A stretch of DNA of 64,000 nt, from NCBI RefSeq assembly GCF_029227915.1, contig NC_079882.1:9486001-9550000 (forward strand). The letters are read 5' to 3'. The DNA is from Hydractinia symbiolongicarpus (Eukaryota > Cnidaria > Hydrozoa > Anthoathecata > Hydractiniidae). The notes beneath the pieces are model-generated. The model was not told the DNA's origin and did no database searches. It worked only from the letters and a program-made list of their open reading frames with translations. Below, in pieces: positions 23,646 to 49,900 of the stretch. A program made the translations under genes and the position numbers. Positions within the stretch are counted from its first letter, which is position 1. Each line of letters begins with the position of its first letter.

Positions 23646-23924
23646 ATGCGATATAACTCTATAGGTATGTAGAGTTTTGAGTATTCTGCCAAGGAAGAAG
23701 AACACAGTACAGTATTATCTTTACTTTAATTTTTTTTCGCCCTTTTTCTTCTTTGACAACACAACCATAACAAAATTCCAAAACACGATTTTAAAACAGC
23801 GATTGTTTAAGTTTTTGTTGTGAGAATCTTATTAGCACACAGTACTTTACCTGCAAGCTCGTTGGAAATAACGCATTTAAGCAGTTATGTTCTGTAAACA
23901 AACGCATGCCTGGTGAAAGTTGCA

Positions 23925-25119: not shown

Positions 25120-25350
25120 TTAAATACTTGTTTCTAAATATTTCAATCTTTTGCGATGTTTTCTAATTTTCTTGACGCTCTTCGTTCGTATTGCTTCAAA
25201 CCGATCATTCACTTTATTTTTAGTATGACCATGTCTTGTCATAAGTCGCATGAAGTTTGTTCGTAAGACTTGCAGACGAGAAAGTTCACCAAAATGTTTC
25301 ATTGTATTGTAGCTACAGTGATATATTTTATGCTTCTTCTTGGAAAACAT
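25120..25350 (-). pseudogene. Duplicate of the receptor's terminal exon
   Basis: This stretch repeats most of the C-terminal tail: KHFGELSRLQVLRTNFMRLM is identical to the exon at 25,660-25,928, followed by RHGHTKNKVNDRFEAIR and RLKYLETSI. The part upstream of Lys-His-Phe is unrelated. The only nearby acceptor AG (CACTGTAG) would enter in phase 2, which does not match the phase 1 donor at 26,136. I call it a decayed duplicate, though an alternative last exon is possible. An AATAAA lies just after its stop. Confidence 0.65.
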
Positions 25351-25556: not shown

Positions 25557-25659
25557 AAACCGATTGTCATACAATTTTATTAGCAGTGAAGAAAAGGACC
25601 AAAAAGTCAGGGAAACAAACATCCGTCCGTGCTACAAGTGCTGACACGTGCAAAATCTA

Positions 25660-25928
25660 TTAAATATTTGTTTCCAAATATTTTAATCTATTTCTTTTAC
25701 TAATTTTTTTCAAGTGCTTTCTTCGTATTGCTTCAAATCGATCATTCACTTCTTTTTCTGTATGGCCATGTCTTTTCATAAGTCGCATGAAGTTTGTTCG
25801 TAAGACTTGCAGACGAGACAGTTCACCAAAATGTTTCTCATCCATCTTCTTTACACGGCTTTTAAAATTGTGCGCAAAGTCGTTTATATCTTGTGTTAAT
25901 TCTTTTTTCACCATTACATCCCTTGAAA
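25660..25928 (-). CDS. Terminal exon: basic cytoplasmic tail
   Basis: A 269-nt exon, acceptor ATTTCAG, phase 1 in, ending at a stop at 25,660-25,662. It reads VSRDVMVKKELTQDINDFAH, FKSRVKKMDEKHFGELSRLQ, VLRTNFMRLMKRHGHTEKEV, KHLKKISKRNRLKYLETNI. It is rich in Lys and Arg, probably helical or coiled, with no known motif. A partial copy lies downstream at 25,120-25,350. Confidence 0.8.
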
Positions 25929-28900
25929 CTGAAATACAGAAAGTTGTTAAAAATCTACTTTTGAATAAGATTTGAGGGGAATTTTAATATTGGGGAGAAT
26001 GGAGGAGGCTTGAGAAGACGTGCCAATTCTGTTTGTAATATCACAAGGCTTTAATGTGTTTTAAAGGGGTGGGAATAATTTCGTTAAAAGTTATGATATT
26101 GAGAGTTCTCTGTATACACAAAAAGAATATAATACCTATAGGTTGAATCTTCTTCGCCCTGTTTCTTTTAAGACAACACAACCATACAGAAATTCCAAAC
26201 GCGCAAAAAGCAAGGAAAACATAACACAACATAATTGAGAAGTCAACCAATTCAGCTTTTGCGATTAATTCTGTCTTAAGAATGGTTACATTGGGCTAAA
26301 AAGTGTAAAATAAATATAATTAGCTAACTGTATCGAGAGAGGCATCATTGTATGCATATACAATGATGCCTCAATGATTACAATGATTTAAGAACTTGAA
26401 CTTATCTGAAAGGAATTTTAAGCATTTCGAAAAATTGGTAAAAATTCAGTTTATTGCAAAATTTATTCGTCCAAGATTTTTGCTGAAGATATTATTTCAG
26501 TTTGTCTGTTCAGTATTCATATTAGTGTTTAAGGTTTATCTTTTCTTGAACATGATAGTTTAGTAGGCGAAGTTTTAGGAGATCCATCTCCCATCATCGG
26601 AAAAAGTAAAATGATGTTTAGCATCTTTTTTTATAATTGCACAGGGTCAAGATTCATAAGAATTAACCAATCAGGAAAAGGCTGCTAATTACAGTTAATT
26701 AATAAGTCTTTCAGACCTCGATGATATACCTGACCCTTGTGTAGATAAGAGTAAATGTATTGTAAATCTTTCCAACAGACTACTTAGACACCGGCTTCAA
26801 ACGAAAGTGGAAGAGGCAAATGAAAATATACTAGAAGAAGAGGTAGACACAGTGAGAGCTACAGAATCGCAAAACCTCAAAGGATAATTTATAAAAAAAA
26901 TGAAATGAACACATAAACAGCGAGTCTTACAAACTTCTCTAGTATTATCGACTGAAACAGGAAATCTAATTCAAACAAGTCTCTGTTTAAATTATCCTAA
27001 AATTTACAATCCATTTACTTTTGCCTACACAAGGGTCAGTTATTTTCATCTAGGTCCAGAAGACGTATTAATTACCGTAATTAACTGTTACTAACAGCTT
27101 GTTCCTGATTGGTTAATTCTTACGAATTTCGATCCTCTGCAATTATATAAATAAAAGCTTAACATTATTTTACTTTGCCCGATGATGGAAGAAGGATCAC
27201 CTAAAACATCGCCTACTAGACTATCATGTTAAAGAAATGATAAACAATTAACAATCAGATTTTTGTATTTTGTATAAATCTTAACGTGTTTATTAACTGT
27301 CAAACAAAATTTTAAAACTTTAAAAAATTTTGTTTAACAGCTAATAAACACTGCTTTGTAAACATTGTTGGCGAAAGTAAAATTATTTTTAAAAAATTAT
27401 TTGACTGATAACAAAATCACTTCATCTGATTCAAATTTTGAAAAGTGAACTTACTTTTAAAACATCTGTCTGACTGTTAATGAACGCACTAATGCTCCCC
27501 TGATTTGCGTCAACATAACTGCGAACATCGTCTTCAAGGCTTTCCAAGCCTCCCGACAACACTGTTCCATACCCACTGCTTGTGTCAAATATTTTCTTTA
27601 CAGTAAGAGTCATTTTCTTTAAGTAGTCACTGTAACTAGTTGCTGTTAATGCATCGAGCAGACCAATCGAAACTATATCTTTGTTGACAGCTTCTAATAC
27701 ATGCATTGGTCGACTTACGTTGTAAATCTTTGCGTTTCGTGCAACAGCTAAACTATACTCTGCAGTCCCAGGAATAACAGCAACCTATATGTAATAATGT
27801 GTAATGTATTATTCCAAATATAAAATACGTGAAAATAGGTAAAAATATAACAAACAATTTTCTTTTAAATCTATGCTAATAATTGAATCATAAGTACGGA
27901 GTAGTGTGATATGTTGGTTTACCCTTTCAGCGTGACGAAGGCGGTCGCGAATCGTGATAAACGTACCTTTGAATGGATCCAAAAACCATTTTATCGACAC
28001 GGGAATATGATAGTGTTGTTTGTGTAGTGTAGTGTATTATCGATAAAAATGTTTATGGGAGGAAAAAACCTTATTATTTAGCTGGGTTTTTTATATTGTT
28101 ATAAGTAGCTGGAAAAGGGCTGTGCTATTTTAAATTTTAGCCAGCTATCATATATTTCTGATATTTAGGATTTTAAGAGGTCGTAAATAGTTTTAGTTGT
28201 CTTTGTACCTAAATGTTTATGGAGTTTCTTGAAGCTACTCAAAATGTAGAGACATTATACATTGATTATAAAGAAAAACCATGACATTTTCTTCTCCACA
28301 GGAAAACACAAACACAAAAACAAGTTTTCATGATGGAAATGTGTATGTATGTCTGTAAGCAGCGTACGAATTTGTTTATAGTGAAATTTCTGATGTTTGA
28401 AATGAACAACATTGTATTTACACATAAATATTGTAGTTTAAATTTAATCGAAGATGCATTTCACGTTGTTTTTTACGATGCTTTTCTTTTACAAAGCCAC
28501 TTTTACAAAAAGCTACACCATAATATAAAATGCTGCAGTTCTTTTTCAGAGAAATTAATATAATTATCAATAATTTTATAACCTAATAACGTCAAATTAA
28601 TTTCGATGAAGCCGTGAGAATAATACATTGCATCACACTTACTTCAACACCATACAATTTAACTTCTTGTTGTAAATTACTTGACACTAAGTTTGTTGAT
28701 ATTGATGCAATAAAAATACTCGTCGTGATCAGGCCAATCAATGTCCAGCATATTGTCAAAACTTTGGACAAACGCGTGGTTGGTACATAATCTCCATATC
28801 TGGATACAACGATAACATAAAAGACACAGTGAATGAGAATTCGAATAAAACATGTCATTATAGGATTGCAATAAGAAAGTGATTCCTCACCCTACAGTAC

Positions 28901-31900
28901 CAATTGTTACAAATGCCATCCACATTCCTTGTAAAGCTCCTTTTCGACAGTCACTTAACGTAAAATTACTTGTTGAAGAACATTGTTCCTAAGTATTCAA
29001 CAGTACATATAAGGTAGATTAACATTAGCACAATATAAACCGTTTTATCTATCTATATCGAGTAATATTACCCAAGGTGAAAAGTAAAGACCGAGTTTGC
29101 GAGGTCAATACGCTTACCAGGGGTAATATTTTTTAGAAGAGATAGATAAACAGTTTATATTGTATTTATTAACTGACAACTATTTTGTTTTGGTTTGTAG
29201 AAACAAGGATTTTAAAAATTAACTTGTGAAAAAGTTGTAAAAAGCAAGTTTTGTTAAAAAAAAACAAAAACGTTTTGACTTTCATTGTCTCAACTTTTTA
29301 AATATATGTACAAAGCAAAAAAATCATTCGAATATAGAATTTTCAAACGTTTTTAAACCAAAGTTTATCACAGAAACTTGGCGCCGATTTGCTTGTTGCT
29401 CATTGTGCTGACAAAGTTATTCATGCGTGCAGCATCGAACATGGATTTAAAATTATTGACTTTACTTGATGATGAAATGGATGTAGTGATATTTTGTAAA
29501 GAACGTTTTATACCACGGTAGCTCAAACTTATTATGTGGTCTGACATGTATTCTTGCTGTTTACTTAAAGCCATGTGATACGATTTTAAACTTTTTGTGA
29601 ACTCCTGATTGTAAAACATGAATTGGATAGAGGTCGTTGTTAAGAATAGTTAGAATGGTTGTTTTTCTGGCGGAGTGATCGGGATTTTAGATTTACTGCA
29701 ACTTAATTTTTGAGTCTGTATGTAGCTATGTTTTAACGATCTCCGGCTTTGTTATTTGTTTACAGTTATAGCTACCATATTGGTTGCTATGAAGTGAAAA
29801 GTTACTTTGTGCTGCATAAAACCCTTTAATAAGGCTTTTTAGCCAATAAGCGCTGTGGATTTACCGTATAAACCGGTAAAAACAGCTATAAGTTAATAAA
29901 TAAAAATATTAAACAGTTTTTTAAATGCATTAATAAGTAAAAAACAAACTACTCACAGTAAACCATAGTAACAGTCCAAATTTTATGGACAACAGTACCA
30001 TTATTGCAACGATTGTCCATGATGCAAATACATTTCTTAACAAGTCTTTCATCTGATATCTTCTCACCTTTTGATTGTACATAATAGCTGCACTTCCTTG
30101 CGTTCTTACAATACCTATGTATGGATAGATACCAGCGTATTTTCTCACTGCAAATTTGCCATATACGGGCATGTTTAACTGCACAGTTGATCCGATGTCT
30201 TCTTTCATGTGTTGTGCATTCTGCTTCTCTGCAGAATGACCAGTTAACGTTCGATCAAAGTAAATTTTTGGAACAGTATATGTTTTGCAATTCGTGCACA
30301 CCTCTTTTAATATGGTTGTTAATAGCTGTGGAAAAAAACCTTGAATGTCCTTGCCTTTACTTCTATCATGATAAATGTATGGTTGCAAACTATGGAAATT
30401 CGAATAAATGTATTCAGGGCATCTGCATGTTTCTAAAAATTATATCACATTTTAGTTTTTGTAAGGGGTGTGCATAAGTCTTGGAACTAGCTTTTATTTT
30501 TGAAATTATATAATATCTGACGTCGATATATCACTTTATAGAATTCAGAAAATATCAGTATAAATAAGCGAGAAAAACATACCTGCTGTAAAGGTAAAGG
30601 CTGGGCCATCTCCTTCTTTAGCAAACGCAAAGATTTTGAATTTATACATCGAGTAAGGGGATAAGTCATCTATATACGCAGAGAATGTGAAGCGATCCAC
30701 TTCTTTTACTGATAGCGTCTCACCTACTGTCACGTCTATATCTGCTTGACGTACAAGAACGTATTCCATCTTATATCCAACTACATAACCATTTTCCTCT
30801 TCTGCTGGTATGGGATTCCAAGTTATTTTTATTCGATATGATGAAAATCTATCCTCCCAAGAGACATCGGGTGGAGGGACTCCAGGTGCTATAATAATAG
30901 TAATTATAAAATAGCTTTCGGGTTCATTGTGATTCATCAGTGTCCCAGGCAATTTTGTAAAGATATATAAAGCACGTACTGACTCAGTCTGGTAAATGCA
31001 AATGTATTAAAAAAGATAAGAGAGTTTTATGTTTATGGTTGATTTTTTTAATTAGCAAAAATGAAGATGTCAACAAGAGGTGCCTACCATCATAAGCCGT
31101 TTTAAAGGTAATAAAAGAAACTGGACCATTGCCAGCGACGGTGTAACCATAAATCGTAAAAAGATACCAGGAAGCGGGTTTTAAATTATTTAATGTTCTC
31201 TGTAACATATTGGCTGCAGTTGTTGTGTCACGAGTTAAATTACTATCCAATCTTTTATAAACAATTTTATAACCGAGCAAAGTTCCTGGGACTTTATTTT
31301 TCGGTATCTCATCCCAATCCAAAAATATTGAGGTTGGGCTCATTTCTTGATAAATGAAATTTGGTGGAGCGATATTTGGAACTGAATATGAAAAAAATGC
31401 TGGTTAATTTAGAATTTGGCAAAATTATTATCCAGTGGTACCTGGTGTGTACGTTAAGATAAGGAAACAGAAGGAATTAAAAGAAACTACCTCCTTCAGC
31501 TGTCCGAACCTTTAGTTCCATTGATGCAATACCATTGGCATCAGATATTCCAGCTATCAAACGAATCCCATACAGGGTGTCACCTTTCAGATCAGTTATC
31601 TCTATAGTTGTATTCACAGTACCAAGCGATGTCCAATTCACATTGGGAACAGTCAAATTGCGATAAAAAACGTAATACATTGAAAATTGTTCTGGAATTG
31701 CCCAGTCAATATCATTTTCCCAACTGACAAAAATCTTGTCAAATACAGTAGAAGTCGCTGTGAACTTAGGAGCGTTATATGGCACTAGAAATATAATTAA
31801 AATTTCATATAAATTTCTACAAAGCAATTTTGCTACGCTGTAACGTGTGCAAGAAGATCTAACTAATACAGAACCCTATCGCATACACTATCACAAGACA

Positions 31901-34900
31901 AACAATTTGTTAAGGTTTTCTCTTTTACAAGCTTACTTGTTGCTTGTTAACTTTCGGCTTGGATAGACCAAATTAACGAGTTTCCATGTTCAATTAAACT
32001 AATTATGTGCTAATGGAAATGAAACTTTCGCATTTAACTTTTAAAACAAGAAAACATTATTCCCTGTTTTTATTTCTCACTTAATGTAATAGAACATTAG
32101 CCAAAACTTTGAATTTAATTTGCTTTGGTTTTGAATTTTTATTAAATCACGTAGCCACGTTTTTATTAATAACCGTTAGTAATAAATTGCCTTATACGTT
32201 TTCAATGTAAATATTTCAATGTTTTCAATTTACGCGCCTATGATCCTATCCTAATCAACTTATCAATCTTCTTATTCTAACTGGATTTTCTTACGTATAC
32301 TCAAGTATTTAAATTTTAATTGTATTCATTTATTTATTTGTTACGTATTCGTGTGTGCATGTGTTTAAGTGGTCCACAAGTGCTACCACCAATTCCTGTT
32401 CGGTCAATTTACACGTCTATGATCCTATCCTAATCAATATACCAATTCTCTATTTAGCTAAAATTTAATTCAGATACTCAAGAATTTAATTTTTAACTGT
32501 ATTATTTATTTAAGTATTTTATTTTGTGTGTGTGTGTGGTCCACAAGTGCTACCACCAATTCCTTTTCGTTTATTTACGCGCCTATGATGTTATCCTAAT
32601 TCTTATACCAAAGTCTTTATTCTACCAGATTAACTTCCGCATACTAGAGCAAATAATGTTTGATTTTCGTTCTTTGTGTTTCAAAGATTTTTTACTTTAC
32701 GCTATTTCATATATACGCATTTCAAGATGAAGAACCATGTAATTCATGGATATGCTTGAAACAAATCGGAAACAAATTATTATTATTATTATGTATAATT
32801 AATGAGAAATGTATAGAACAAATAACCAGTTACCATTGTGCGATGTTATAGATAGCATTTGAACAGGAGTGGTGTTTATAAAGCCGATATCATCAATAGC
32901 ATTTTGTAAAATCAATGTTTCGACGAACGAGTTGACCCGGTAGAAGACAGTAAAATTTGCAATGACACTACCACGACTAGAGATAAAATAAATGCAAGAG
33001 GTAGGAAGTCATTTAAAAAAAACCTGTTAAGCGAAAAAAATTCAATTTAATATAACATTACCTCATTTCATTCACTACAACATCACTAACTACAGATAAA
33101 CCAACAGAACTATTTGACATAACAGCCATCACCTAAACAACAATATAAAAAGTAATGATAGACTAAGTGAAAGAAAATCCTGTTGCAACTAAACAAATTT
33201 ACATACCTCGTTAATCAGATGACTTCGGACTTTTCTCCCTTTGACAGAGTTATCGTAATGAATAGTGTAATGCCAAGTCTCGTTGGTCATCTTTATCAAG
33301 AAGTTTACTCCAATTTCTGCAACAAAAAGTTTCTTATAAATAAAAAGGTAAATATATATACTAAATGAATTCATGTAAAGCAATATACCTCTGCACAACA
33401 CATCTTCATTACATGGATATTGAATTTCGTCTGGCCCATTACAGGAGTCTCCACCGTACAATGGCTCTGGATTGTTACAATAACGTTGTTTTACTTGTAC
33501 ACCACCAGCACCACACGGTCGACTACACGGCCGTAAAGCCGACCACTCACTCCAGTGACCATCTCCTTTAAAGGTTAAAAGGTTTTTAATAATATTTTTT
33601 GAGTTAATTACGCTCTTCGAAAGTAGTGTAAACTAATTTATAGACGAGTTTCTTACTTGGGCATGGATTTGGGTTGCATCCATCAATAGATTCTGAGTCT
33701 TTTCCCTCACATTTCTTTCCTCCAAATAATGCAGGTGGTGAATTACAATATCTGTTTCGAGTGTTACTTCCCAGACCGCATGATTTGGAACATTTTCCGA
33801 ATCCTGTCCACGCACTCCACTGACCATCAACTAATAAAAAATACTCACAATAATAAGACATAAATAGGTACGAATGATTTTGTAACTAATTAATTTTCAC
33901 ATACCTGGACACAGTTGTGTATTGCAGTCTTTGATATCTACTGTTTTGTTGCAACCACTTTCTAGCAAGCATGTACGAAATCGACGAAACACACCGCGAC
34001 CACAAGAGACGGAACAAGGGCTCCATATAGCCCAGGATGTGTAAGACATTGCTTCTACACATAAAATGCATAATAATAAAACTTTTCTCTTCTGATCATT
34101 TTTGTAATCACCTGCAAACACACTAATCAATAACAAAAAAAATTTCAGTACCTATATCGACGCAATAACAGAGTCGTCGAATCCCTTCACTAAACTTGCC
34201 ATCAGTGGAACATTTAATTCGACCAGGAACCCGTGCGTATCCAGAACAAATATTTTTATTAAAAAAGAAAGATGGGTCATATTCTTTCGAAAATGTCTTT
34301 TGAGAATCATCAGGAGAACAAGTCACGCCCTGTATATCAGTATAATCATATCCACTGATAGATGTTTCAAATACATGCGTTGTATTCTCCGTATCAATAA
34401 TATCAGAGCACGCAAATTTACTTCCAAGATTCTCACATGTTTCTGTACAATCAGTTAAAGGTTTTGCAAGATAGAAACCTAAAACAAGTTTTTAGTTATA
34501 GTCACATGGTTACGTAAGTTTGCGAACACTACTTAAAATATATATTGAGCTAACCTGGACAAGGAAAATCATTACATAGTCTTTGTTCAACATCTAAGCC
34601 AGAGCAATTGGCTCCACCCCTTGCTGGTATTGGGTTAATACAAAATCGTAACTTAGTCTCAGTGCCATTTGCGCAGCTCCTATCACAGTTTCCCCATTCA
34701 CTCCATTCCGTCCAATTACCATTAACTAATGTGGTAACAATAAGTTTTCGTTATAGAACAGGACAAAGATGTTAGGAAACAGCGGTTATTGGTTCAGGCT
34801 ATCTTTTCAGCTTTAAAACAGGCTATTCTACATTACAGTAGACATAAAATTTCATTGAAATCAAGACTTACCAAATGTATCTGTAATTACATAAACACAT

Positions 34901-37900
34901 TTACTCATCGGTCCTACTCCAGCACTAGTGTAACCAGCAATGCATACACTGTAGTTTGTATACAGATCGAGTTCTGTAACATCACAAGTATTTATATCAT
35001 CGCCAATGCAATCTTTAAACTCCATATTCTTACATATCTGTCCAGCGGTGCAATTGGTAGGTTCATCTGCATGTTGGTAATAAACATGGTAACCTAATAG
35101 TTCACCTTGCCACGATGATTGAGGTAGTTTCGTAAATTTCACATTTATTCCTGAACTGCTAATGTTATTTGCAAATGTAATTTGTGGAGAATATAATGGA
35201 ACTAAACATTAAAAATTAAACTTAATATATACGTAAGATGAAGGTTTTTATTAGATTTGATCAAGTATACATAGTTTATTATTATAAAACTATTTCCGAT
35301 TCAGTTCCTACTGGAATTGTTATCAATGAGGGTTCTGTGACAGAGTTCTAGTGGATTTATAGTTCTTTTAGACAACACCACTGATTAATTGGACAAATGC
35401 CCAAGATATCAATACTGTATAAGTGTTTTTTAATTAACACATTTGTAGTAGTGTGGCATAACATTCTACACCGGAAGTAAACACTTTACCACAAGGTTAA
35501 TTGCCGACAATGTTAAAAAAAAAGAAGCAATGCTTTTACCATTTTCAGATGTTCGCATATCACTTGTCACCAAAGGTCCAATTCCTTTTCTTCCTATGCC
35601 ATAAATTGCTATTCGATATGAAGTATAATTATTTAAGTTGTAAATTGATGCGCTCAGCTGATTACCAGGAACAGTGAATGTTGTAGAAAACTCATTATAT
35701 TCTTCCCACGGTTTTTCATGTTTATTGTAAGATATGAAGAAAGTAATTTCTCCCCTTTTTTTCATTGGGTTAATATCAGACCAATTGAAATGCAAGCTCT
35801 CTTTTATGTCCATATTTATTTGTTGGAGAAACTGTATTTTTCCAATGGGTGCTACAAAAAAATAAATAAATATTGTCAAAATACATACCAAGCAAAATTT
35901 CAATTACAAACCAGAATCTATATCTTTTGTTAACTTACCCATTTCATCTGTAGTAAACTGTAACCAGCCTTTCATTCCACATCCGGGAGTGGTGCATCCT
36001 TGTACAGAAACATTATATTGTGTATATGGAAACAAAGCAGAAATCGAACTTCTATAATCATCCAGGTAATCCAAAAAACTGATGTTAGGTGGTCGAAGAG
36101 TATGTAACGTATTATTCGCCAATATTCCAGATATTTCTAACTGGAACGAGTTTAAAATACCATTTTGAAAGTCACTCGGCACTTTTTGCCATGTAACAGT
36201 CACGCTGTCCGAAGTTACTGACGTGACATTAACATTTGAAGGTGGAGCAGTAGGAACTAAAATGAAGGTACTGTTTTAAAAGAAGGGTTTATATTTTCGA
36301 AATTTTCAACAAAAAAACCATTAAATCAAGAATTTGCAGTCTAAAGCACGTTTGAAAAAAAAAATAATATACGTACCGTCCTCAAATGTTTTTAGTATGA
36401 GAGAAAATAAAAATGGTGCATCAGAAGTGTAAGGTCCGTCACCTACTTTTGTAAATGCTCTCACTTTGATTTCATACGAGGTAAAAAAATTTAAATTTTC
36501 CACTACTAATATGGATGCTGGTTCATCAATAACGTCAAACACCACCTCATGCGCTGTTAAGTTAATCAAATTCAAAAGATGAACTTTGTAACCTCGGATG
36601 ATGCCATTTCTGTGTTCTCGTTTAGGTAATGTGACATTTAAGGTGATCGAACTGCTACTGTTTGCATATCCAGATATGTTCGTAGGTGGGCCATCAGGAG
36701 CTACCAAAAAATAAAACTAATTACAGGCTGTAAACTTCACCCAATAAAAATAAGTGAAAAAGGAAATAATGTTAAAAGATAAAAAAAATTAGTTCAGATA
36801 AGCTTACCATCTTGAGCAGTCACAGCCCATTTAAAACTGTGTGGCCCATTACCAATACTGTTCTCAACATACACAACAGCAGTGTAATTCCAATATTTCT
36901 TTAATCCTGTTGCGGTATGCGTATTCACAGTCAAATTTTCCACATTTTCTTTTAGAATATCATTTAGTAATAAATTATAAATTCTCTCTCCATACAACTC
37001 ACTCTCCAGAAAAACGACATGATAAAACCTTAAAATACCATTCATACAAAAATGTCCAAGTGGACCGATTGTAATAAACAGAGATGACGATGAAGATGTA
37101 TTCGACATTGTGAAGTTAGGTGCACACGAGGGATATGTCTCCGCTGTTCGAAACACAACGGTACGCTGCATGTTAGAGCAATTTACCATGGTGCAAGGTG
37201 TAAAATTGAATTCGTAATTTGTAAAAGGATAGAGACCGGTAAAATTTAAATCGACTACTTTCGAGGAGTTTGGTGGTTGCTTCATAGAACATGACACATT
37301 AACGTTTGACATTTGTTTCCAATAGTTCCACTCATCTGAGGTATGAGTGAGATTTTTTATTACGTTAATAAAAGTACTTTTCCAATCGGTTGGTCTGTAG
37401 TTAATTACATAATGGGTTATTATACCGTTCTCGTTCTCGCGAGGAACTTGACCAAATCTTATATTTATGGAATTGTGTGTTTTGTTGATCAGCTTGACAA
37501 TAGATAGGTAATAATTTGGCACTATTTATACAAATAAGAAAAAGAATAAGCAATTATCTAATAATAGAGATATAAAATGAAAAAACAGATGCAAGGACAA
37601 ACTTTATAAATTTTAAGTCCTGAGAACACCATCTTACCTTCTTGTCCTGTAGCAAAACAAATTTGGGCTGTAGGTCCATTTCCTATTTCATTAAAGGCAA
37701 ATATAGTTACTTTAAACAAGTTAAAATAATCAAGGACAGATGAATTAAACATATCTTGTTTGTATAGTAACAATGATGTAAAAGCTACTGATTGAGACAA
37801 ACTGGGATATAATGGTTCAATTGTCAAGTTATAACCAGACATTTCCCACGAGTTAAAAATTTCAATGTCTTCTGTGTAATTCCATCGAATAAATACAACG

Positions 37901-40900
37901 CCAGGAGATATTAACTCTAACAACAAAATGTTGGGTGCTTCTTCTGGCACTAGAAAAAGAATACATAGTTAAGGAAATAAGATTTCAAGACAATGCAATC
38001 AGACAGACAGATGAATAAGATGATATAGACAAAAAGTTCAAATAGGATTTAATTTTCCACATTATAACGGAGAAATAGGGCAAAGTTATTCTTTTAAAAA
38101 TAGTCTTTATGCAGTATAAATTAATAGATTGATCGAATATCTTTAGAAATGTTGAGTTCTTCAGAAGAAGAAATTCTTGCAAAAAGTAATTTTCACGAAT
38201 CCGTGAAATTTTAAAAATTATCGAAATTTGCGATTTATTGCAAATTTTCGAAATAACAGTGTAAAAAACTGGTTAGATGTAATTCATTTTCTAAAATATC
38301 TTTTGTTTACTTTCACCACAAGCAAACTTCTGGGAAGTTTTAAATTATTACACTTCTGTGTATATACCACCAAAATTGTTTTAACTGTTCTAAAAAATGC
38401 CCTCAAAATAGAGAAAAACACCATCTGTAAGATATCCAGATTTAAAACCATTTATCACCATCTGTAAGATATCCAGATATACTCTTTTTAAGAGCCACAT
38501 CATGTGTTATAAATACTATGACCTCGCCAATTTTTATTCTTGTAGAAAATTTGGTTAAAATTTCGGGAAATCTTCCAGATATGTTTTAAGGTGGTTGGTT
38601 TCGGCAGCATTGATTTCAAATAGCACACACAAACATAAAAAGGAATAGCGGGAACAAAAAACAAACTTGAAATCGTAATTTCAAAATCCATGGCATTTTT
38701 CCAGGAAAACCCTCTTCAGGTTTTGTTTAACAGCACAATTAGTTGGTTTCAAGGATGTTTCTAATATATAAATCATTAGAGCAGAGTCAGAGCACAAGTT
38801 AATATCCTCAAAGGTAGGTCTTTTTTGCAAAATCAAAGTAATTTTAATATGATTAGTAGGTCCTTTAGGTCATCCAAGCTAACCAACTTAGATACTTACA
38901 CCACTGGTCAGATCTACAGAACATACTAGCGAAAGCACCAACTCCAGCATCGTTTACTGTTGCAACCAAAATGCTATAATTAGTAAAAGCTTCTAAACCT
39001 GTTATTTCATATGAAGTTATAACATCATCTCCATAGCTAAAATCGCTGAAATTTCTTAAGGTTGAGTGCATATCTGCATAATCGTATGATGAGAAACTTT
39101 TTTGTGTGTTATTGTAATTAAAATCAACTTTTTTCCAATATATTCTGATTGTCATATTCTCGCTGTTCCAATGTGTTATATTATCATACATCGACCATTC
39201 AACTTCTATTGAGGTATGACTGGTGTTAAATGCACCAACATCTTGTGGTGGGATGATATTAACTAAGAAAGGTAAGAATGAATTATGAAGGACTTAGTGT
39301 TTCATAAGCATAACAAAAAAGTCATATTTCTTGCACACAATGTCCAAGATAAAGACATACCATCAATAGGTGTGTGGAGAACCTGCTTTCCTCTTGGTCC
39401 GATACCCTGATGGGTCAAGCTCCATAAGGCGATTTCGTATTTCTTGTATGGTGAAAGGTTGAAAAGAAACAGTTTTAATCGGCCAGTTTTAAAATATTTT
39501 ACAAAATGGTGGTGGATTGATAGAGAATCTATCAAATAATAACTGGTAATATTTACTAAAAAACCAACATGATATCTTTCGTCTTCAACATGGTTATTTA
39601 TCTTAAGCGTAACAGTAGATGAGTTCAGTGGTGTAGCTGTAAATTTCAATGGTGTTGGTAGCACTAGTGAGTAATAATGAAAGGGAAACTTTAGATAGGG
39701 AGAAAATCTTAAAACAACCACCAATTAATTACAATTCTTACCATTCTTACCGGTTTGATGTCGAAATTATGAAAAATCGACTATTATATCGAGTTATTGT
39801 GTAATTTTAAAAAAATTTAGCATATATTTTCGTTGAGTCCCTTCTGTTTCTATTTATACCGTTTTTCTATTCTATGCTACACAACTCAAAAGTTCAAATA
39901 AAATATTTACAATTTGAATATCAAAACACAATTCAAATCAGTTAGTAGTTAAACTTTCATTAAAAATATTATTACCTCCAATAGTTGAAGCTTTATCATA
40001 ATCTCTCATAATTAAGTATTCTCTGCCATCGTGTGCAAAACTTTGAGTTGGTATTGTGTAAAATGCATTTTCAATATTATGTGGTAGGTATGATAACAAA
40101 ACCAGTAAACCAACTTTGGTGGTTCTGGTGGGATTGATTCTAAATAATTTATACAAAAACCAAAAATTTTAGTGGGAACAAAGCTTAGAACTTTTTCACA
40201 CCAATTGGAAAACTTAATTTCAAAATCTAGGGCATTTTTTAGAACAAACCTCTTCATGCTTTGTTCATAACAACAGGACCATTCGGCTTAAAGCATTTTT
40301 TCTGCCATATAAATCATTTGAGATAGAAAACGTAAACATATTTTAACAAATTAAGTGCCATATTATTTTAGGAGATAAAAATTAATATTATGATGCTGGA
40401 CAATTTGACTTAAACTTAATTCTAAGACAATCCAGGACATTTGGCAAACTCAAAAACATTCAGGATCAGTTTGTTACATCAATAACTACAATACTCTTCC
40501 TAATTTACTTAAAAAACAGTTAATGTGTACTCACTTCACCAATTGAACTGGTTTATAACCAATGTATCTGATTGTTGGTTTAGTGAAGTATTGACTGAAG
40601 AAATGTTTTAACTAAAACAGCATAAATTGTTTCTGAGAAATTTGAAAGTAAATGTTTTTTAAATGATGGAAAAAGAAATACACATATAAGAGAACTAGGT
40701 AAATTGTAGCTGTGAACCCACCATAAGATGTACAGATTGATATATAAAGTCTTTTTCCTCAGTGTTATAATTAGCAGGTTGATAAAAATCTTGGGAGAAA
40801 ATAATGAGTTTAATCTGTACATACTTTCGGTAATCTGTTGTGCTTCCTGGTATAAATATTTAAAAATTTAAATTAATAAACAAAAAATAATATGAAAAAA

Positions 40901-43900
40901 TATAAAGGCACAACTGCAATGCAATTAAAAGTCATTAGTTAATGAATGTGCAATATTTGTTCTAAATTTTCAAATTAATATACAATGTGCGATAGTAATA
41001 CCATTAAAATATATTTACATACCAAACAAGTACCAATTGTAAATAACTTCTGCATCAGCATATGAATTGGGAACAGAAAAAATAGAAAAATCATCAATAC
41101 AAACGTTTGATCCAATTGATAATACCATTACATCATTTTTACTTCCAGATGGGTAGCTGCAACCTTCACTGTTAGCAATACGAACACTATTTAGAAATAT
41201 GCTTACGTTTGAAGAACTTAGTTCTACGTTTACGTAAATCCATGAGTTTAATGGTAATGTTGTAAAAAAGCAAATTTCGCCATTCCATTGAATGTTAGTC
41301 TGAGCAGCAATGGTTGCTTCGCTTGATGAATATGTTACCTGCATAGATATATCACCGAATCGAAACACTTTACTCTGTTCTATTGAGGTTTCTTGGTGAG
41401 AAACATAAAACCAAAATCCAATGACGTATTTTTCTGTGCAGGTGGAAAAATCACCGGAACATGGAGTTGCAACAGAACCAATCTTGGAAAACTGATTACT
41501 TACACAAGCTGCATAATCCATTGGTCCTGGTTTCAAACTCACATTACCACTACTTTGATAAGTTAATCTGAATTCACCTTTGTCAGACTGTGTTGTTGTT
41601 TCATAGTCAAATGGGATGTATACAAGAGCATCTTTAAAAATACCCTGTGCAAATGCTAGAAAAAACACAAATAGCTGTCTTGTAACTAGAAAAAATGTAC
41701 CAGGAAATGCTGTGTATTGCTGTAATATTTCATTCAACAACAAGTTTAAAATAAACATCCCAGTTAATCTATACTCTACTACATGTCTGCACGTCAAAAT
41801 GGTTTTTACTAGTATCCTGTTATTTCAATCATAAAGCACCCATTTCATATATTTTGTCTAAATTAAGACTCCACAAATGCAGAAAATTTTTAAACAACAA
41901 CAAGGTTAAGGTATATGGCTACCTTAACTTAAAACTTCTTTGTACTTCTTTCGCAGATGGAAATTTGAAGAGGGAATTGGAGTAACTATATCGGAATATG
42001 GATTGAACTAGTATTTTAAGACGGAATGTTCAATGTATATAATGGATGTTTCTCTCCAAAGAATAAAAAGCTGCTACAAAACTTCTGAATTCTCCCCCTT
42101 ACAAGGATGATCAGATAGGTAATGGATTTAGGCTGTGCTGAAAAAAACACCTACACATGAGGAAACATGAGGATTGGTGAGATGCGGCTCGTTCGTAAAA
42201 ATTTTTAATAAGATAGTTAATAATATAGGATAGTTAATAAGATAAATGCACTATATTTTTGTAACTTTATGGAACCTTTTCTCAATGTCAAAAAACCATT
42301 GGCAAATGGCGAAGCAATGTTTATCTGCAAACTATAAAAAAATGTATAAAAAACAAAGAACTCTTAAACAGCTCAAGAGATTTTTGTGGTAACACCCATT
42401 TAGAAAGAATGTTTTGTGGTAGCCCTTGTTTTAAAAAAAACTTACCATTTTCACAACTGGCTGTCTGATGGCGAAGATTTTCATCGTAACAGGCACATGG
42501 CTCCTCTGATAGGGCCAAATTGAAACCATTTTTACATTTGACATCATGATAAAACAATTCTAAAGTGAAAAAAAATTCTAATTACTGTACGTGCATAAAA
42601 TTTTGTGAGCAACTACCCAGCGGGAATAGGACGTGATATTAACGTCATAATTTGGTTACATTTTGGTCGTGACGTCCTGCGACCAAAATGCGACGTTACA
42701 GGACGTCGCCTAGTATGACGTTAATTTATGGACGTGCTTATAACGTTATAATGACGTCAAAAAATAAGGGGATTTTTAGGCCTATCCACGAACGTTTTGA
42801 TAACGTAATAACGACGTCAGCATTTGTGACATCGTACTTATTAAATTAATATAAACAACTATCGTGTCTATTGTATATATCCTTATCCAAGTGCATTTTG
42901 CAACCATATAGTAAAACATAGCTACAGTCACATTTTAGGAGATTGACAAGAAACAATCGAGCGCACAAAAATCATTGAAGCACAACAATCTTTGAACGCA
43001 CAACAATCATTGAACGCACAACAATCTTTGAACGCACAACAATCATTGAACGCACAACAATCTTTGAACGCACAACAATCATTGAACGCACAACAATCTT
43101 TAAACGCACAACAATCTTTGAACGCACAACAATCATTAACCGCAAAACAATCTTTAAACGCACAACAATCATTAACCGCACAACAATCTTTGAACGCACA
43201 ACAATCATAAACCGCACAACAATCTCTAAACGCACAACAATCTTTGAACGCACAACAATCATTAACCGCACAACAATCTTTAAACCCACAACAATCTTTG
43301 AACGCACAACAATCCTTAACCGCACAACAATCATTAACCGCACAACAATCATTAACCGCACAACAATCTTTGAACGCACAACAATCATTAACCGCACAAC
43401 AATCTTTGAACGCACAACAATCCTTAACCGCACAACAATCATTAACCGCACAACAATCATTAACCGCACAACAATCTTTGAACGCACAACAATCATTAAC
43501 CGCACAACAATCTTTTAACGCACAACAATCTTTGAACGCACAGCAATCATTGAACGCACAACAATCTTTGAACGCACAACAATCTTTGAACGCACAACAA
43601 TCATTGAACGCACAACAATCATTAACCGCGCAACAATCTTTGAACGCGCAACAATCTTTGAACGCACAACAATCATTGAAAGCACAACAATCTTCTAACG
43701 CACAACAAGCTAATGTTCAATTTTGAATTTAAAACATATCTTCATTCATTAGGAGAAAAAATGATGCATGTGCCCATAGCTTTGTGATTTCGCATCGTCG
43801 AAATAATCAACGGATATTTTTGATGACGAAGCATAGTTTCTATTAGCTGTTACACTTTTTATTTGGAATAAAATAAATTCTTGACACATTTTTTGTGTCT

Positions 43901-46900
43901 TTCTTTTACTTTGCTTTTTTCCCACAAAATAATAATAATTTTTTCGCGTTATCTTAGGGTTCACAGAAATAATTCTGCAAAAAATAACCAAACAAGGAAG
44001 CATAATGCAATGGCGTTGTACGATGTAAACGAGTTCTTCATACAATGCTAAAGGACATGCTGATGACTCAATTAAACGTTATACCGACGTCATGCTAACG
44101 TTACTGAGACGTCATATCACCTAAGCATCACCAACCCATGACGTTCAAAATGACATCTTTCAAACGTTATTATTACGTCATGGACTGACGTCGTTGAGTG
44201 CAAATGTACCCATCTAATGACGTTATCACAACGTCATGTATGGTCACGGTGCAACGTTACTATAATATTTTAATAATGTAATATTGCCAGCTGGGTAATT
44301 ATTATTAAAATTATTATTAAAAATCAAATTAAATAATTAAAAGAATCATTACTTCATTATAAACTAAAAAACAAACCTTGACGATTCGGACAAAATTCTA
44401 AAGCTCTAACTTCAGCCAAAGTCAGTGATTTGTTATAAAGTTGAAAACAGGAAAGGTATCCTTTAAAGACTTCGTGTACTTTGTCATTGGAAAAGAAATG
44501 GATACTTTGTGGAAATGGAATGGCAAATGTTAAGGGTAGATCAAATTCTTTTTCCAACTATGAAAATAAATTATATGTAAAAAATAGTTCAGTGAATGCC
44601 ATTGCAAGAATTATTAACACTCGTAAAGATGTAATAAAGTTTCCTACTTTGTTATTCTTGAATAATTTCATCCGTCCTGCAGAATATGTGACACCAACAT
44701 ATGCCCACTTGTTTTTGTTAACTGCAAGTGGAAAGACTTCTTCAATGAATTCAGCATTAGATTGCATTCTATAACACGTAAATTTGAAACTCAAAGTTTA
44801 TTATTTTTGTTAGAAGATGTCAATTCTCTTTGTTGAAATATGATTAATTACTCTAAAAAGTCTCTATTAAAGGAAAATAAAATTGTTTAAAATATAGGTA
44901 AATTATGTTTGTTGTAGGAAAAAAAAAACTTTTATTTTAAATTCGTGATTTCTATTGGGAATGGCATGTTTTCTCCATAATATATTTTTTTCACAGATAT
45001 CAAAAACTTCTGCATAACTTCTTCGTGCAATCATTTCATAGATATGAAGAAATTATTAATGTACATAAAGGGACTATAAAAAGGAATGTTGATTTTTATG
45101 TGACTAACATGATAGAAAAGCTAATTGAGGTAAAGAAGGTTTTATAAGCACTGATGAGAAAATCAACATCTTACATTTTCTTTAACACCTAATAGACATT
45201 AAAATATAACTAAAAACGATAAAAAAAGTTACCTAAATGTTCGTTCTATCAAAATTTTAATCAATTTGAGCACCATTCTTTAATTTGAATCTTTTAGACA
45301 GAAAGAATTTCAAACCCTTTTCATAACTAAATCTCTTTCCATATTTTGCATAAAAGCCTGTAAGAATGTTGCATATGAAGCCAGTAATTTTGAAGAATGT
45401 GTAAAATTCTGTAATAAATGTACCCCTTTGTGTTGTGTCTCCTTTCGTGTTAAAAAAGACATAAGAAGATAGACATAAAAACAAGCAGATTTTATGGCAG
45501 AAACAAATTATTCTTAATTTAAAATCAAAAATTAAAATCATTAAAAAAACAAATCAACATTCTTCTTTAAACTTAGTCAATTTCTGCTACAATTCATATT
45601 TTTTCTTGTATTTATAAACACTGAATGTTGCAATAAACATAAATATTTTATATGTTAAAAACATCATGTTTTTCTTGTTTTATTTTCATTTTTACTAAAG
45701 TTTGAGCAGAAAAGTCAGATCTGCAGTAGGTTTAATGAAGTGCCCACCAAAAGTCGTTGACTCTTTTTGTTGCAAAACAATTACAATAATGCAATATAAA
45801 ATTATGTATTGTATAAAGTTTTGCAATGAAATAGGATATTTTGTTTTGCGAAAGGCAGGGACGGATATTTCGCCAAAAATTTTGTGATAGGATTTTTCAA
45901 GTCACTCAGTAAACATCAGGCTTTATTTACGCAAGCACAAAGACAAACAGGTTCACATTAATATGATAAGGATATGGGAAGCAGTGTCATGTGGCAAGAA
46001 AAACAAAAACTTACACAATGTATAATCTGTTCTGCTTCATGTTAATACTTATCAAATCACCTTGGATTCCAAATTGTACAATTTTTATGGATTTGTCAAC
46101 ATAAAGTGGATAAAAATGAAATAAAAATGCCCACTCAGTTTTTATGGCAACAACAGCAGAATATATGTCTAGGTTAAATAACCCTAATTTAGAATCCAGC
46201 TCATCCAATTGCACACAGTGATCCCACATTCCGTACTTGTCAGGAAAGTGAACTCGAACTTTGCTATCAATAGTATCATCAACCAAATGAAGATGATGCG
46301 GGCCATAGTCTTGTAAGTAATATTCAGGTAAAGCCAAAGGATATAGAAGAAGAGGTGTTGGTAAATTTAAGGTCTTCATAACAGCAATGTACGAGGTGTA
46401 ATCTAAAAAAAAATTCAAACATTTTAAAAATATGCTTTAAAATAAAAAAAGAAGCAAAATTGATGTTAACCTGGAAAAAAATTTGTATAATGAGAATTCA
46501 CTATCTAAACGCCTAGAGTGCTCATTAAATTCTGTAAATATTTGAGTAAATATTTATTTTTTGGCTGGAAGGTTTATTTGAGGAAGGTTTATATTTTTAA
46601 TAACTTTGACAAGCTGCTGTTTACGCCAACAAATTTAACAAAGTACAGTGTTCAAATTTTTGGGTATTTTTCCTTTCTGTCCCTCATACATGACCTTTTG
46701 ACCAGATTAATGTCAAATTCCACCTTCTTCCAGGGTTTAAAGAAACTTTAACAGGCATACAGAATTAACAGTTAATAAAAGAAAAAAAACCTGTTGTGGC
46801 TTTAACAGATATTTTCAATACAATTCGATGTAATTAACATGGGGTTCTGCAAAATAATTTTCTTGTGTTTTTTTGTGACTTTTGAAACTAATCTAAAGTG

Positions 46901-49900
46901 TGTGTGGGCAAAAAAACTGAATATTCTGGTTTGAAACGATGATTTCAAAGCCTACACTATGCTTAATATTATGTGGAAATACATTTCTTTGAAGCGTTTA
47001 TGCTTGACAGCTTGTTTTGGCAAAGTCGCATGCTCATATTATTGTCTTTAGTGTCACTTGACTAAACCCAAAACTATTAATAAGGTGTCATTTTAAAAAA
47101 AACGAATGTGACTTCTTTTTATTATATGCTGTATTATATATCAGTGAAAATATAACTACTAGATTAGAACGGACTTGTATCTTTCACCAATCAGATTACA
47201 GAAGATTCTAGATAGTCATAATACATGGGGTATCATGGCATAAAAACTTGACTATTGAATATATGATATTGTTGAGAATTTATACTTTACTTTAATTATA
47301 ATTTTATGAATTTATGGAGGTTCAAATGTGTATGTTAAGGATCTTTTTGTGAAAAATTAATTCTAACAGCCCAGAAGAACACAATAGCTAGCAAGTAAAA
47401 GGATTTCCTAAAGTTTGCCATATGTGTATAGCTAGCAAGAGTACTATAACATTTGCAAGTGATGCCTGATATTTGACAGTCAGGGTGGACCAGTTAGAAT
47501 CAATAAATTTAGTTATGCAGCAACCGTTTAAGAGTGCATTTCATATAACAAAAATAGTGAAAAATCTGCTTATCTTGCTCAAAGAGATGTTTCCAAAATG
47601 TTAAAGATTTGCAACATTTTCATGAAATGCAAACTGAGGGCTTCGACAATTATCTCGGTTTTGCAAGTTCTGAAAATATTTATTATTTTGTATAATTTAT
47701 GCAAACATTTAAACATTAAAATATTATATATAAATTACCAAGATCTGCTCAAAGTATTATTAACTAAATATTCGTTCCATAATGACAGCATTAAATGCCA
47801 CTTCAGATGTAAAAAAACAGTCAATTGTGGGCGTATTTCTTTATTGCCTCAAATCCACTGAGCTGCTTATACATATCGGGGGGTTTGTGGCTGGAAACAA
47901 ATATCGGGGAGTTTGTGGCTGGAATCAAATACTTGTTTTTAATTTTGTAAATAAACTGAGCACTGCATTTAATTGCTATTAAAATAGGTGAAACACATTT
48001 CAGTTGGTTTAAGCATGTGAACTTGTACATTTTGGTCCATACAGTCAAACTTGTTGAGAAAGTCACTTAAGGGAGAAGAAAAAAGTGAATGTCTTCGAAT
48101 CAGGCCGTGAAATATTTTTAACCATTTTCAGGTGACTTTTATCATGCACAAAAGTTAAAAAAATTAGATATAAATCATTTACTGAAACGAAATACTAACT
48201 CAAAGTCAAGAATTTGCCATCAATACCTGGGTATGATCTTTAATACAAAATTTTATATAAAACTACAATAGATAACAATAATTAACCAAAAGTATAACCT
48301 TTTTTCTACCTTTTTATATAAATTACGAAAATTAGTTAAATAGAATTAAGCAACTATTAAGCTACTTCAGATCTAGATATTGACTAACAAATAAGAAATT
48401 TGAAATCTGGCTTTATATTTCTTTGAAAAAAATCGTGTGTATAAAAAACTTAATTAGTTTTAAATTTAGAGAAACTACGTTGAAACAAAGTTAAAGAATA
48501 AATAAGAAACTGATTGAATTAACACATGCTGTTTTAAGGGTTAGTTTTCCAAATTGCTACGAACATAGAAAGTTAATAATAACAAGTTTTCCTGATGTTC
48601 GTTCTAAAAAAGTTCCATAAAGAACTATTTCGAATTCATTTTTGTCAAATCGTAGTTGTATTTTAGTGTACATTGTAATATTATTATACCATATAGACTG
48701 AATATGACAAATTACTTGTTTCATGTGACAAAAACGAATTGTCTGAAGAAAATAATGTTAACTAAACACAAATACATGCATACATGAGCAGTATTTCACA
48801 CCTTAAAGCGCTAGCTGTTCTAACAGAACAATCGTAGGCATCTAAAGATGTTTGTAAGGTGTTTTACGTTCATTTAAACTTGGCAAATAAAGTAAAATTT
48901 ACCTCTTTTAAGTAATTTTTTATTTTGAGCTTCAATGCTGGCTGCGTTGGGGTGGCTGCCTTACACAGTGGCATTAGTAAAAAAAACACGAATGAATGCA
49001 TAGTGATCACTATCTTATACAGATGACTGAAAGAGCAGTTTGGTTGCATTGACCTAACAGACTGCACAGGAGAAATAAAAATTATCACCTTTTAACTAAA
49101 TGTACGTACCATTAAATTTAACCATACATGCTTAATAACTAGATTGTAAATGTCTAACTAAATGTTGACTACTTAATTATTGATTTACTGTGACTGTCTT
49201 GTTTAACAAGCTTTAAATAGATTCCTTATTTTTCGTAATGAAATCAATGCTATCAAAATATTTCCAAACCTTAAAATATTTTAAATAAAATTTAAAAAGT
49301 GAAATTATACTGATTGTTGCATATTTTTTTGCACTATATACAGTGGACTCTCTCTCTACCTAGAGTACCGTCTTCATGAACTTAAACGGATTCTCGCAAA
49401 TCCTTTTGCCTTGGCAGCCCAGGGGATTCGAATCCCGAGATCGTAGCATTTAATGCACTATAGGTGTATATATATATATGTAAATGTATATAAAAAATAT
49501 ATTTATTTGGTCATTCAGAAAAAAGAAATAAAATCTTAGTTTAAATGTTTTTTATTGTCGGTACAGTGTTAATAATTCTCAGAAAAGTGGAACAGCTTAT
49601 GCAGTTCTAAGCATTTGTAATGGCTACCAGTTTCATTCTTAGCTAAAAAATATAGTCAAATGCATATAAAAAGATGCTGTGTACATAATAAAGCCAGTAA
49701 ATTAGGGAATGAAAACAATTCTAAAATTCTTATTGTGCATTGTATCAATTTGTTATAGTAATAAGCTTGTAAACAGCAAATGTAAGAAAGGAAATGACCT
49801 TTTAAGACTTTCCAGTTTCACATAATTATTCATCAGTTAGTTCATATATAGTAATAAGCTTACTTGCAGGATCATAAAATGATTGATAATCCTTAGTTAT

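Follow-up and report, generated by a model that had tools for sequence, protein, structure and literature searches.

Glutamate receptors with a potassium-channel selectivity filter are represented, in the passages cited here, by a bacterial class and a single rotifer example (PMC12226733, PMC12332018, PMC2950845). An earlier note on one stretch of DNA from the hydroid Hydractinia symbiolongicarpus claimed an undescribed cnidarian example, and we found no cnidarian K+-filter receptor in the open-access library that was searched. The question raised by this locus is whether such a core is encoded here and what kind of protein it belongs to. The window, meaning the whole stretch analyzed, comprises 64,000 nucleotides of contig NC_079882.1 (positions 9,486,001 to 9,550,000).

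Minus-strand exons from 30432 to 25657 splice in frame to give S1-M1-TIGTVGYGDYVP-M3-S2-M4-tail (Table 1), with GT..AG borders at 5/5 core introns and an open frame of 495 aa, and every element of the spliced order that had been proposed was found. The pore loop reads TIGTVGYGD; it contains the K+-channel signature TxVGYG and the TVGYGD filter that had been noticed. We infer K+ selectivity and an inhibitory K+ conductance from this filter. The M4 exon falls beyond the interval given in the earlier note (27455..30432). Between M1 and P, the loop contains an NFT sequon as well as two Cys, which would be unexpected if this loop were cytoplasmic.

Table 1. Features of the giant gene, from the window edge to the stop codons (window positions).
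Feature	Position	Strand	Basis
Probable further exon, cut by window edge	63931..64000	-	link to U2 assumed
U2-U9, including C-type lectin U4 (60153-59803)	52574..61410	-	Lectin_C E 1.8e-10
U10-U15, Laminin_G_3 and MAM-like	44377..51951	-	Laminin_G_3 E 3e-6; MAM E 0.0024, under cut-off
Exons A and LamG-like (42559-42446, 41655-41023)	41023..42559	-	by eye; no Pfam match
Eight FN3-type exons (39663-39361, 39262-38900, 37949-37638, 37521-36808, 36700-36377, 36256-35939, 35851-35540, 35201-34872)	34872..39663	-	exon model; label of each exon by eye
Four TSP1 exons (34725-34555, 34054-33905, 33830-33657, 33565-33389)	within 33389..34725	-	TSP_1 E 1.3e-30, 4 stretches
Cys-rich exon, no assigned family	34478-34152	-	exon model
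SEA-like region (exons 33316-33207, 33132-33062, 32976-32834)	32834..33316	-	Pfam SEA E 0.11, under cut-off
FN3 exon	31491..31784	-	exon model + Pfam
FN3 exon	31088..31381	-	exon model + Pfam
FN3 exon adjoining S1, phase 1	30583..30888	-	exon model + Pfam
S1 (lobe-1-like) + M1 exon, begins TCRCP	29957..30432	-	spliced frame; clean counterpart exon in 14/17 paralogue loci
Pore-helix exon, ends TIGTV plus GG; filter Gly codon split by intron	28891..28988	-	spliced frame
Filter + M3 exon, starts A / TAT GGA GAT (YGDYVP)	28643..28799	-	spliced frame; YGD at this exon start in 17/17 analyzed paralogue loci
S2 exon with PGTAE, LLDA, SSGYG	27455..27784	-	spliced frame; GluR0 S2 homology
M4 exon, then basic residues	26136..26295	-	spliced frame
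C-terminal tail, presumed cytoplasmic; ends in two stops, TAA TAG	25657..25928	-	spliced frame

This core is the end of a giant gene. Up to the window edge we modeled 42 exons with 3,949 codons (3,951 with the two terminal stops), which join with GT-AG and contain no internal stops; the N terminus of the gene lies outside the window. Its modules are of lectin, laminin-G, FN3, TSP1, and SEA-like type, and the SEA-like region was also matched upstream of S1 in 6/17 paralogue loci. Pfam fn3 matched two pieces (E 2.2e-33 and 4.9e-37), with five stretches per piece and the three FN3 exons adjoining S1 included, while the labels WSC and LamG of U5, within U2-U9, were assigned by eye only. FN3 stands directly before S1, where canonical iGluRs have an ANF-type amino-terminal domain, and the ANF family was absent among the Pfam matches for the modeled upstream part (up to the window edge). 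Rfam gave no match.

Relatives of the gene are numerous in the same genome. In addition to the YGD filter exon common to the 17 analyzed giant paralogue loci, the preceding exon was recovered in 15 of them, ending in TV (5), TL (5), TI (3), or TH (2), and all 17 have an FN3 match upstream of S1 on the same strand, scored by position and strand only. A further 22 unbroken small frames at 21 loci have the core and filter class of the giants without the giant ectodomain; their filters read TVGYGD in 19 cases and SVGYGD, TVGYGE, and TVGFGD in one each, and at 8/21 of these loci the pore passed the Pfam Lig_chan cut-off. L110 and L122 held no small frame longer than 350 aa, and locus C8:10758026 (L083, L087) was left out of the analysis. 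Our tree supported the giants (99/88), the small receptors (96/98), and, as a separate group, five mammalian-type iGluRs (100/100; provisional rows); L129 and L130, a pair of incomplete canonical-type iGluR frames from this genome that show no GYG, were left out of it. These data support the view that the K+-filter core is one of a large family and no single oddity, and the evidence bears out the earlier claim that a cnidarian gene encodes a glutamate-receptor-like core with a K+ filter. A chance K+ motif was rejected because the intron-split filter recurs in paralogues, and the Ion_trans_2 match given below likewise shows that the pore did not arise as a random hit; a prokaryotic contaminant was rejected because the gene is spliced, carries animal-type modules, and lies on a chromosome-scale contig. 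In viral contigs, three stretches matched a pattern, and none of them was a relative.

We consider it probable that the gene encodes a single-chain giant receptor with a GluR0-type core, a two-lobed S1/S2 clamp, and a K+ pore gated by that clamp. The N-terminal part, more than three thousand residues in the window, would present extracellular adhesion-type modules ending in the SEA-like region and FN3, which would lead directly into a core consisting of extracellular S1, M1, a re-entrant K+-filter loop, M3, S2 (again extracellular), M4, and a tail inside the cell. The two-lobed clamp would be built from S1 and S2, and, by analogy with GluR0 and iGluRs, four subunits would form an inverted K+ pore. 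Closure of the clamp, whether a small ligand causes it or the ectodomain transmits strain or contact, would pull the M3 linkers and open the pore, and the cell would be hyperpolarized; this gating mode is proposed on the same analogy. The window gene is likely to encode a K+ receptor that responds to a ligand or to contact.

In classical receptors, an Arg in S1 binds the amino-acid carboxylate. In our alignment of giant S1 sequences (14 rows; 4 of the 18 giants were omitted, L097, L104, and L105 having no clean exon and L102 being taken as a near-copy of L101), no single column shows Arg more than 5 times, and the alignment is uncertain there. Glutamate as the ligand is unsupported because this classical ligand-binding Arg is not conserved in the giants, and a ligand is probably bound otherwise than glutamate is in classical iGluRs. 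The scarcity of Arg and the FN3 match upstream of S1 in all 17 loci also fit an orphan or contact-gated channel, in which the clamp would bind no amino acid, the lectin, LamG, TSP1, FN3, and SEA-like ectodomain would bind matrix or another cell, and force or clustering would gate the K+ pore. We regard this as possible but somewhat doubtful; an S2 Asp is invariant and SG[YF]G is kept in the seven giants assembled from S1 to M4 (7 of 18; 11 were dropped), and the small relatives retain this core and lack an ectodomain of that kind.

The clamp-gated receptor that we favor also has to be weighed against a K+-channel pore of the ordinary type to which unrelated extracellular sequence has been fused, with the GluR0-type ligand domain absent. 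The profile searches with LBD and K+-pore models suggested in the earlier note matched the pore, Ion_trans_2 being the best Pfam score of the core (E 2.4e-13), whereas Pfam found no LBD, with no match for S1 or S2 up to E 10. Lig_chan reached 24.7 bits (E 2.2e-5), which is under its 30.8-bit cut-off and limited to the pore part, and an animal iGluR profile gave 17.0 bits on the whole core and 18.0 on the pore alone. The PDB matches listed (60 of 230) were K+ channels or close pore relatives, over the pore, and in a pore-only tree with long branches the core joined MthK/NaK (97/93). The Ion_trans_2 score, the PDB matches, and the pore-only tree would suit an ordinary pore, as would an S1 that is not directly detectable. 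However, a GluR0 TM profile favored the core (66.1 bits) over Kv1.2 (53.5), KcsA (53.2), and MthK (23.6), using provisional channel sequences, and an extra hydrophobic helix follows S2. Moreover, a profile built from 14 bacterial GluR0-like proteins with a K+ filter (14 of 19 with GYGD, among 80) scored 87.5 bits against the core, with an alignment that begins in M1, spans M3, and extends into S2 (residues 128-320); S2 contributed ∼17 bits, equaled by 0/1000 shuffles with each of two profiles. These sequence comparisons show S2 to be a homologue of the ligand domain of bacterial GluR0.

Of the two halves described as iGluR-like in the earlier note, S2 is thus linked to GluR0 directly, whereas S1 appears related to the GluR0 type only indirectly, in two steps through the small receptors. 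A profile of the 22 small frames scored 117.4 bits against the core over residues 13-301, S1 included. In profile-profile comparisons, where each E value is for one comparison and 100 column shuffles were run per comparison, giant S1 matched small S1 (E 2e-6) and small S1 matched GluR0 S1 (E 0.001); for S2, the values were 2.8e-9 (giant versus small), 3.8e-7 (small versus GluR0), and 7.9e-5 (giant versus GluR0), and each of these scores was equaled by 0/100 shuffles. Direct comparison of S1 with GluR0 was not significant at the sequence level (1258/2000 shuffles scored as high; in context, 775/1000 and 152/1000) or, for giant S1 against GluR0 S1, at the profile level (4/100 column shuffles reached the score), and S1 ranked 150 of 197 among window decoys. 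Phmmer searches of S2 and S1 against the PDB gave no credible match, only two chance-like ones, the better being a flagellar protein (E 0.0068), and the AvGluR1 chain was absent among the PDB matches to S1/S2. A mixed animal and bacterial LBD profile matched weakly, with hhalign aligning 19 columns and hmmsearch giving E 0.0046 for a single sequence, and AlphaFold on the single S2 and S1 exons was uninformative (mean pLDDT 45.3 and 46.6). The S2 homology and the small-receptor bridge through S1 make an ordinary pore with unrelated flanks improbable.

It is more improbable still that the core forms a gene of its own, next to an adhesion gene to which the FN3/TSP1/LamG exons belong; the choice of upstream exons was partly guided by open frame, but the FN3-S1 intron is only 150 bases long with matching phases, no Met occurs early in the S1 exon, and the FN3 match recurs at all 17 paralogue loci. 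A degenerate partial duplicate lies directly downstream, but that the gene is itself a decayed copy without function is hardly credible, as it has no internal stops and intact splice sites, and dN/dS over 373 codons (0.32 versus L089 and 0.20 versus L090) indicates purifying selection.

GluR0 of Synechocystis and the bacterial Group 1 of Ger et al. share the S1-M1-K+ filter loop-M3-S2 order with the core, and pore and S2 are homologous; the GluR0 type has two membrane helices and no M4, whereas the hydroid gene has an M4 exon, a giant multidomain ectodomain, split exons, an animal host, and no clear S1 Arg. In the part of Ger et al. (2010) cited, the combination is placed, as far as determinable, in bacteria only (PMC2950845). 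AvGluR1 of the bdelloid rotifer Adineta vaga is an animal receptor whose pore loop has a K+ filter, and the cited passages describe it with eukaryotic iGluR architecture (PMC12332018, PMC12226733); compared by description only, it differs from the hydroid gene, which has FN3/TSP1/LamG/lectin modules instead. The M4 that the earlier note set against GluR0 is real but, given AvGluR1, is not the novelty; the unusual features are the giant adhesion-like ectodomain and the size of the family. K2P, Kv, Kir, and 2TM K+ channels have a pore without the S1/S2 clamp, and the core differs from them by its S2 homology, yet its pore groups with MthK/NaK. Canonical iGluRs (AMPA/kainate/delta/NMDA/epsilon) have the S1-M1-loop-M3-S2-M4 order in common with the core, M4 included, but animal members lack GYG and have an M3 of the SYTANLAAF type, whereas the hydroid core has a K+ filter, falls outside their tree group, and stays under the Lig_chan cut-off. 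That an iGluR clamp can drive a K+ pore is reported, in the passage cited, for the synthetic GluATCV, a viral K+ pore in GluA1 (PMC12332018); GluATCV is man-made, and the hydroid genes are natural.

A large family joining a glutamate-receptor-like core to a K+ filter suggests an animal receptor that quiets cells rather than exciting them. More tentatively, there may be an unrecognized hydrozoan superfamily with some forty or more K+-filter channels of the glutamate-receptor type, in which the small members would be ligand-gated K+ receptors and the giant ones "adhesion K+ channels" that would sense matrix, prey, or neighboring cells via the lectin/LamG/TSP1/FN3/SEA-like ectodomain and open an inverted K+ pore. 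Transgenic lines of Hydractinia exist. Single-cell data are also described in the source cited (PMC12464821). A family of this size in a cnidarian that serves as a research organism would allow direct tests of whether animals kept the K+-filter state or regained it, of ionotropic inhibition through iGluR-type channels, and of the coupling of a clamp-and-pore core to adhesion modules. The superfamily reading, if true, would mean direct inhibitory ionotropic signaling in animals in which, according to the passage cited, glutamate is not counted as a major synaptic transmitter (PMC12226733).

Six exons on the minus strand of the window (30432-25657), with GT..AG introns, join stop-free into a core of 495 residues in which S1 and S2 are the putative halves of a ligand-binding clamp and M1, M3, and M4 are membrane helices. 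The splicing from S1 to M4 that the earlier note had proposed is thus found as an open frame; the interval it assigned (27455-30432) contains S1 to S2 but leaves M4 outside. The codon of the filter glycine is interrupted by an intron (GG, then A). The note's reading of TVGYGD as a K+ filter held; Pfam placed Ion_trans_2 clearly on the pore (E 2.4e-13). Lig_chan was weak on the core (24.7 bits, with the cut-off at 30.8) and confined to the pore part. For S1 and S2, Pfam gave nothing up to E 10 and the PDB no believable sequence match, so their iGluR-like label needed support of its own.

Parts of the receptor core in the window, in order of the spliced frame
Feature	Position	Strand	Basis
S1 and M1	first part of core	minus	spliced frame
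Pore helix, last residues TIGTV	directly before split filter glycine	minus	spliced frame
YGDYVP, then M3	after split glycine	minus	spliced frame
S2 with PGTAE and SSGYG	after M3	minus	spliced frame
M4	26295-26136	minus	spliced frame
Tail, stops TAA TAG	3' end of 30432-25657 chain	minus	spliced frame

Degenerate partial copies of the last exons lie at 25119-25300 and 23733-23782 (minus strand; 86% DNA identity for the tail, 84% for an M4 fragment). Elsewhere in the window are a non-LTR element with reverse-transcriptase-like frames by eye (11249-12313 and 17830-18932, minus), a protease-like frame by eye (13143-13814, minus), an ARAGORN-predicted tRNA-Gln (ctg) at 21127-21200 (plus), and a direct duplication at 3215-6818 with (near-)identical frames ∼2.7 kb apart (3215-3439/5898-6122 and 3911-4141/6588-6818). 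A GATTGTTGTGCGTTCAAA-like short-repeat array at 42930-43720 has several frames open and is by appearance noncoding.

We took bacterial loci resembling GluR0, the bacterial K+-filter glutamate receptor, and obtained a frame for all of the best 80 of 83; GYGD was present in 19 of these best 80. A profile of 14 bacterial K+-filter members scored 87.5 bits on the window core, the match running from M1 as far as SxGYG in S2. When S2 was shuffled within the core, the real score was reached by none of 1000 shuffles with each of two profiles; for S2 alone, it was reached by 1 of 2000. In a ranking against window decoys (185 scored), S2 came first and a reading frame overlapping it second. S1 alone was not detectable with GluR0-like profiles, as its score was reached by 1258/2000, 775/1000, and 152/1000 shuffles, and in the decoy ranking with the S1 profile it came 150th of 197.

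A second branch of the family in the same genome consists of short genes with an uninterrupted frame (small receptors); of 23 loci fetched, 21 yielded a total of 22 frames >350 aa. These frames hold S1, M1, filter, M3, S2, and M4, with a hydrophobic start in most by eye; one open frame (L109) is without most of S1. Their pore passed the Pfam Lig_chan cut-off at 8 of the 21 loci, and all 22 frames scored between 87 and 127 bits with the 14-member GluR0 profile, aligned chiefly from M1 into S2. A small-receptor profile scored 117.4 bits on the window core and covered residues 13-301, S1 included. We then compared profiles directly, with E values that are for one comparison and 100 column shuffles as control. 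Scores above all 100 shuffles were obtained for S1 of the giants (the window gene and its FN3-bearing paralogues) against small S1 (E 2e-6), small S1 against GluR0 S1 (E 0.001), small S2 against GluR0 S2 (E 3.8e-7), and giant S2 against GluR0 S2 (E 7.9e-5), whereas giant S1 directly against GluR0 S1 gave E 0.061 and was equalled or exceeded by 4 of 100. Judged by sequence, the small receptors are the bridge from giant S1 to GluR0 S1. As an iGluR-like part, S2 is supported directly and S1 only by way of this bridge.

A genome search with one small receptor gave 80 matches, 16 of which (including the query) cover the greater part of its length in a single frame. Seven small-receptor frames >350 aa among the fetched loci cluster at G000:C13:7737200-7851200. 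Two further loci (L129, L130) hold partial canonical-type iGluR frames that lack a GYG filter and, by eye, have the S1 Arg in place.

With the core as query, the whole genome (480,894,487 bases, 76 contigs) yielded 92 matches, among which we counted the S1 exon at 19 loci including the window. We analyzed 17 of the 18 others, leaving out C8:10758026, whose scores were identical to those of its neighbor C8:10748314. In all 17, YGD begins the M3 exon, and the strand of S1 carries one or more FN3 matches (E up to 0.01) upstream of it; six also have a SEA-like match upstream of S1. The exon preceding M3 was recovered in 15 of 17, with the exon end overrun past the donor in L089 and L098, and the residues ahead of the split glycine were TV (5), TL (5), TI (3), and TH (2). 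The two paralogues with a THGYGD rather than T[VIL]GYGD filter, L095 and L098, may differ in selectivity from the other copies. The lower-scoring matches are not all receptors; L131 is by eye a voltage-gated K+ channel.

Against the paralogues L089 and L090, dN/dS was 0.32 and 0.20, respectively (373 codons, four exons); this excess of synonymous change fits a core maintained as protein. Divergence from L089 is uneven, with dS of 0.10-0.16 for the exons of S2 and S1-M1 but 0.62-0.97 for those of M4 and M3, as if paralogues had swapped single exons. All seven assembled giants have SG[YF]G in S2 and an S2 Asp aligned to that of the GluR0 family. Across the 14 rows of the giant S1 alignment, Arg occurs in at most five rows of any column, which makes an amino-acid ligand for the giants possible but not supported. 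Some small members have an Arg near the expected S1 place, where the alignment is loose.

In the M1-to-S2 tree, support is 99/88 for the giants (7 rows), 96/98 for the small receptors (22 rows), and 100/100 for the five mammalian-type iGluRs, each a group of its own; grouping giants with small receptors was not rejected on this sequence (p-AU 0.41). In the pore-only tree, the window core instead joins MthK and NaK, with starred support and long branches. The mammalian-type iGluR and K+-channel sequences in these trees were entered by hand. The trees disagree on the origin of the pore, and we give more weight to the longer M1-to-S2 alignment.

The window gene is bigger than the earlier note stated: our model has 42 exons and 3,951 codons, including two final stops, and reaches the window edge. 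Upstream of S1, in-phase exons continue through three FN3, a SEA-like stretch (three exons), four TSP1, and a Cys-rich exon, and further upstream are eight FN3-type exons, LamG-like exons, a C-type lectin, and others. Pfam supported fn3 (2.2e-33 and 4.9e-37), TSP_1 (1.3e-30), Lectin_C (1.8e-10), and Laminin_G_3 (3e-6); SEA (0.11) and MAM (0.0024) fell below cut-off. Pfam, searched up to E 10, assigned nothing to the Cys-rich exon (34152-34478, minus) amid the TSP1 repeats. Upstream splice sites were picked partly by open frame, so that frame does not prove them independently. What does speak for them independently is the recurrence of FN3 in paralogues, the short intron (150 bases, matching phases) that separates S1 from the nearest FN3 exon, and the lack of an early methionine in the S1 exon.

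Ger et al. 2010 place the pairing of a glutamate-receptor binding site with a K+ filter in bacteria only, so far as they could determine (PMC2950845). Later papers cite the rotifer AvGluR1 as the animal example (PMC12226733, PMC12332018), and the relevant passages of a 2025 eukaryotic iGluR phylogeny name GluR0 and AvGluR1 for the K+ filter and give AKDF- and NMDA-type receptors for cnidarians (PMC12226733). In a review of Hydractinia single-cell data, the section concerned lists 'ionotropic glutamate receptor signaling' as enriched in one neuron cluster, with the receptor gene unnamed (PMC12464821). The open-access papers searched contained no description of a K+-filter receptor from a cnidarian, in agreement with the earlier note, nor of FN3/TSP1/LamG modules followed by an iGluR-type core. 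The finding of that note is real and larger than first seen.

The iGluR/GluR0 orientation, outside-S1-M1-loop-M3-S2-outside-M4-inside, is suggested by the extracellular kind of module ahead of M1 and by the basic residues that follow M4; the K+ filter loop would then enter the membrane from the cytoplasmic side. An NFT sequon and two cysteines in the M1-pore loop, odd for an intracellular loop, count against this orientation. Given it, the K+ pore would be opened by clamp closure or by ectodomain strain, and its opening would hyperpolarize the cell; as precedents, PMC12332018 describes GluR0 as K+ selective and a viral K+ pore as drivable by a GluA1 clamp. On the sequence evidence, we conclude that this cnidarian has a multigene family of K+-filter glutamate-receptor type, with the window gene in its giant adhesion-like branch.
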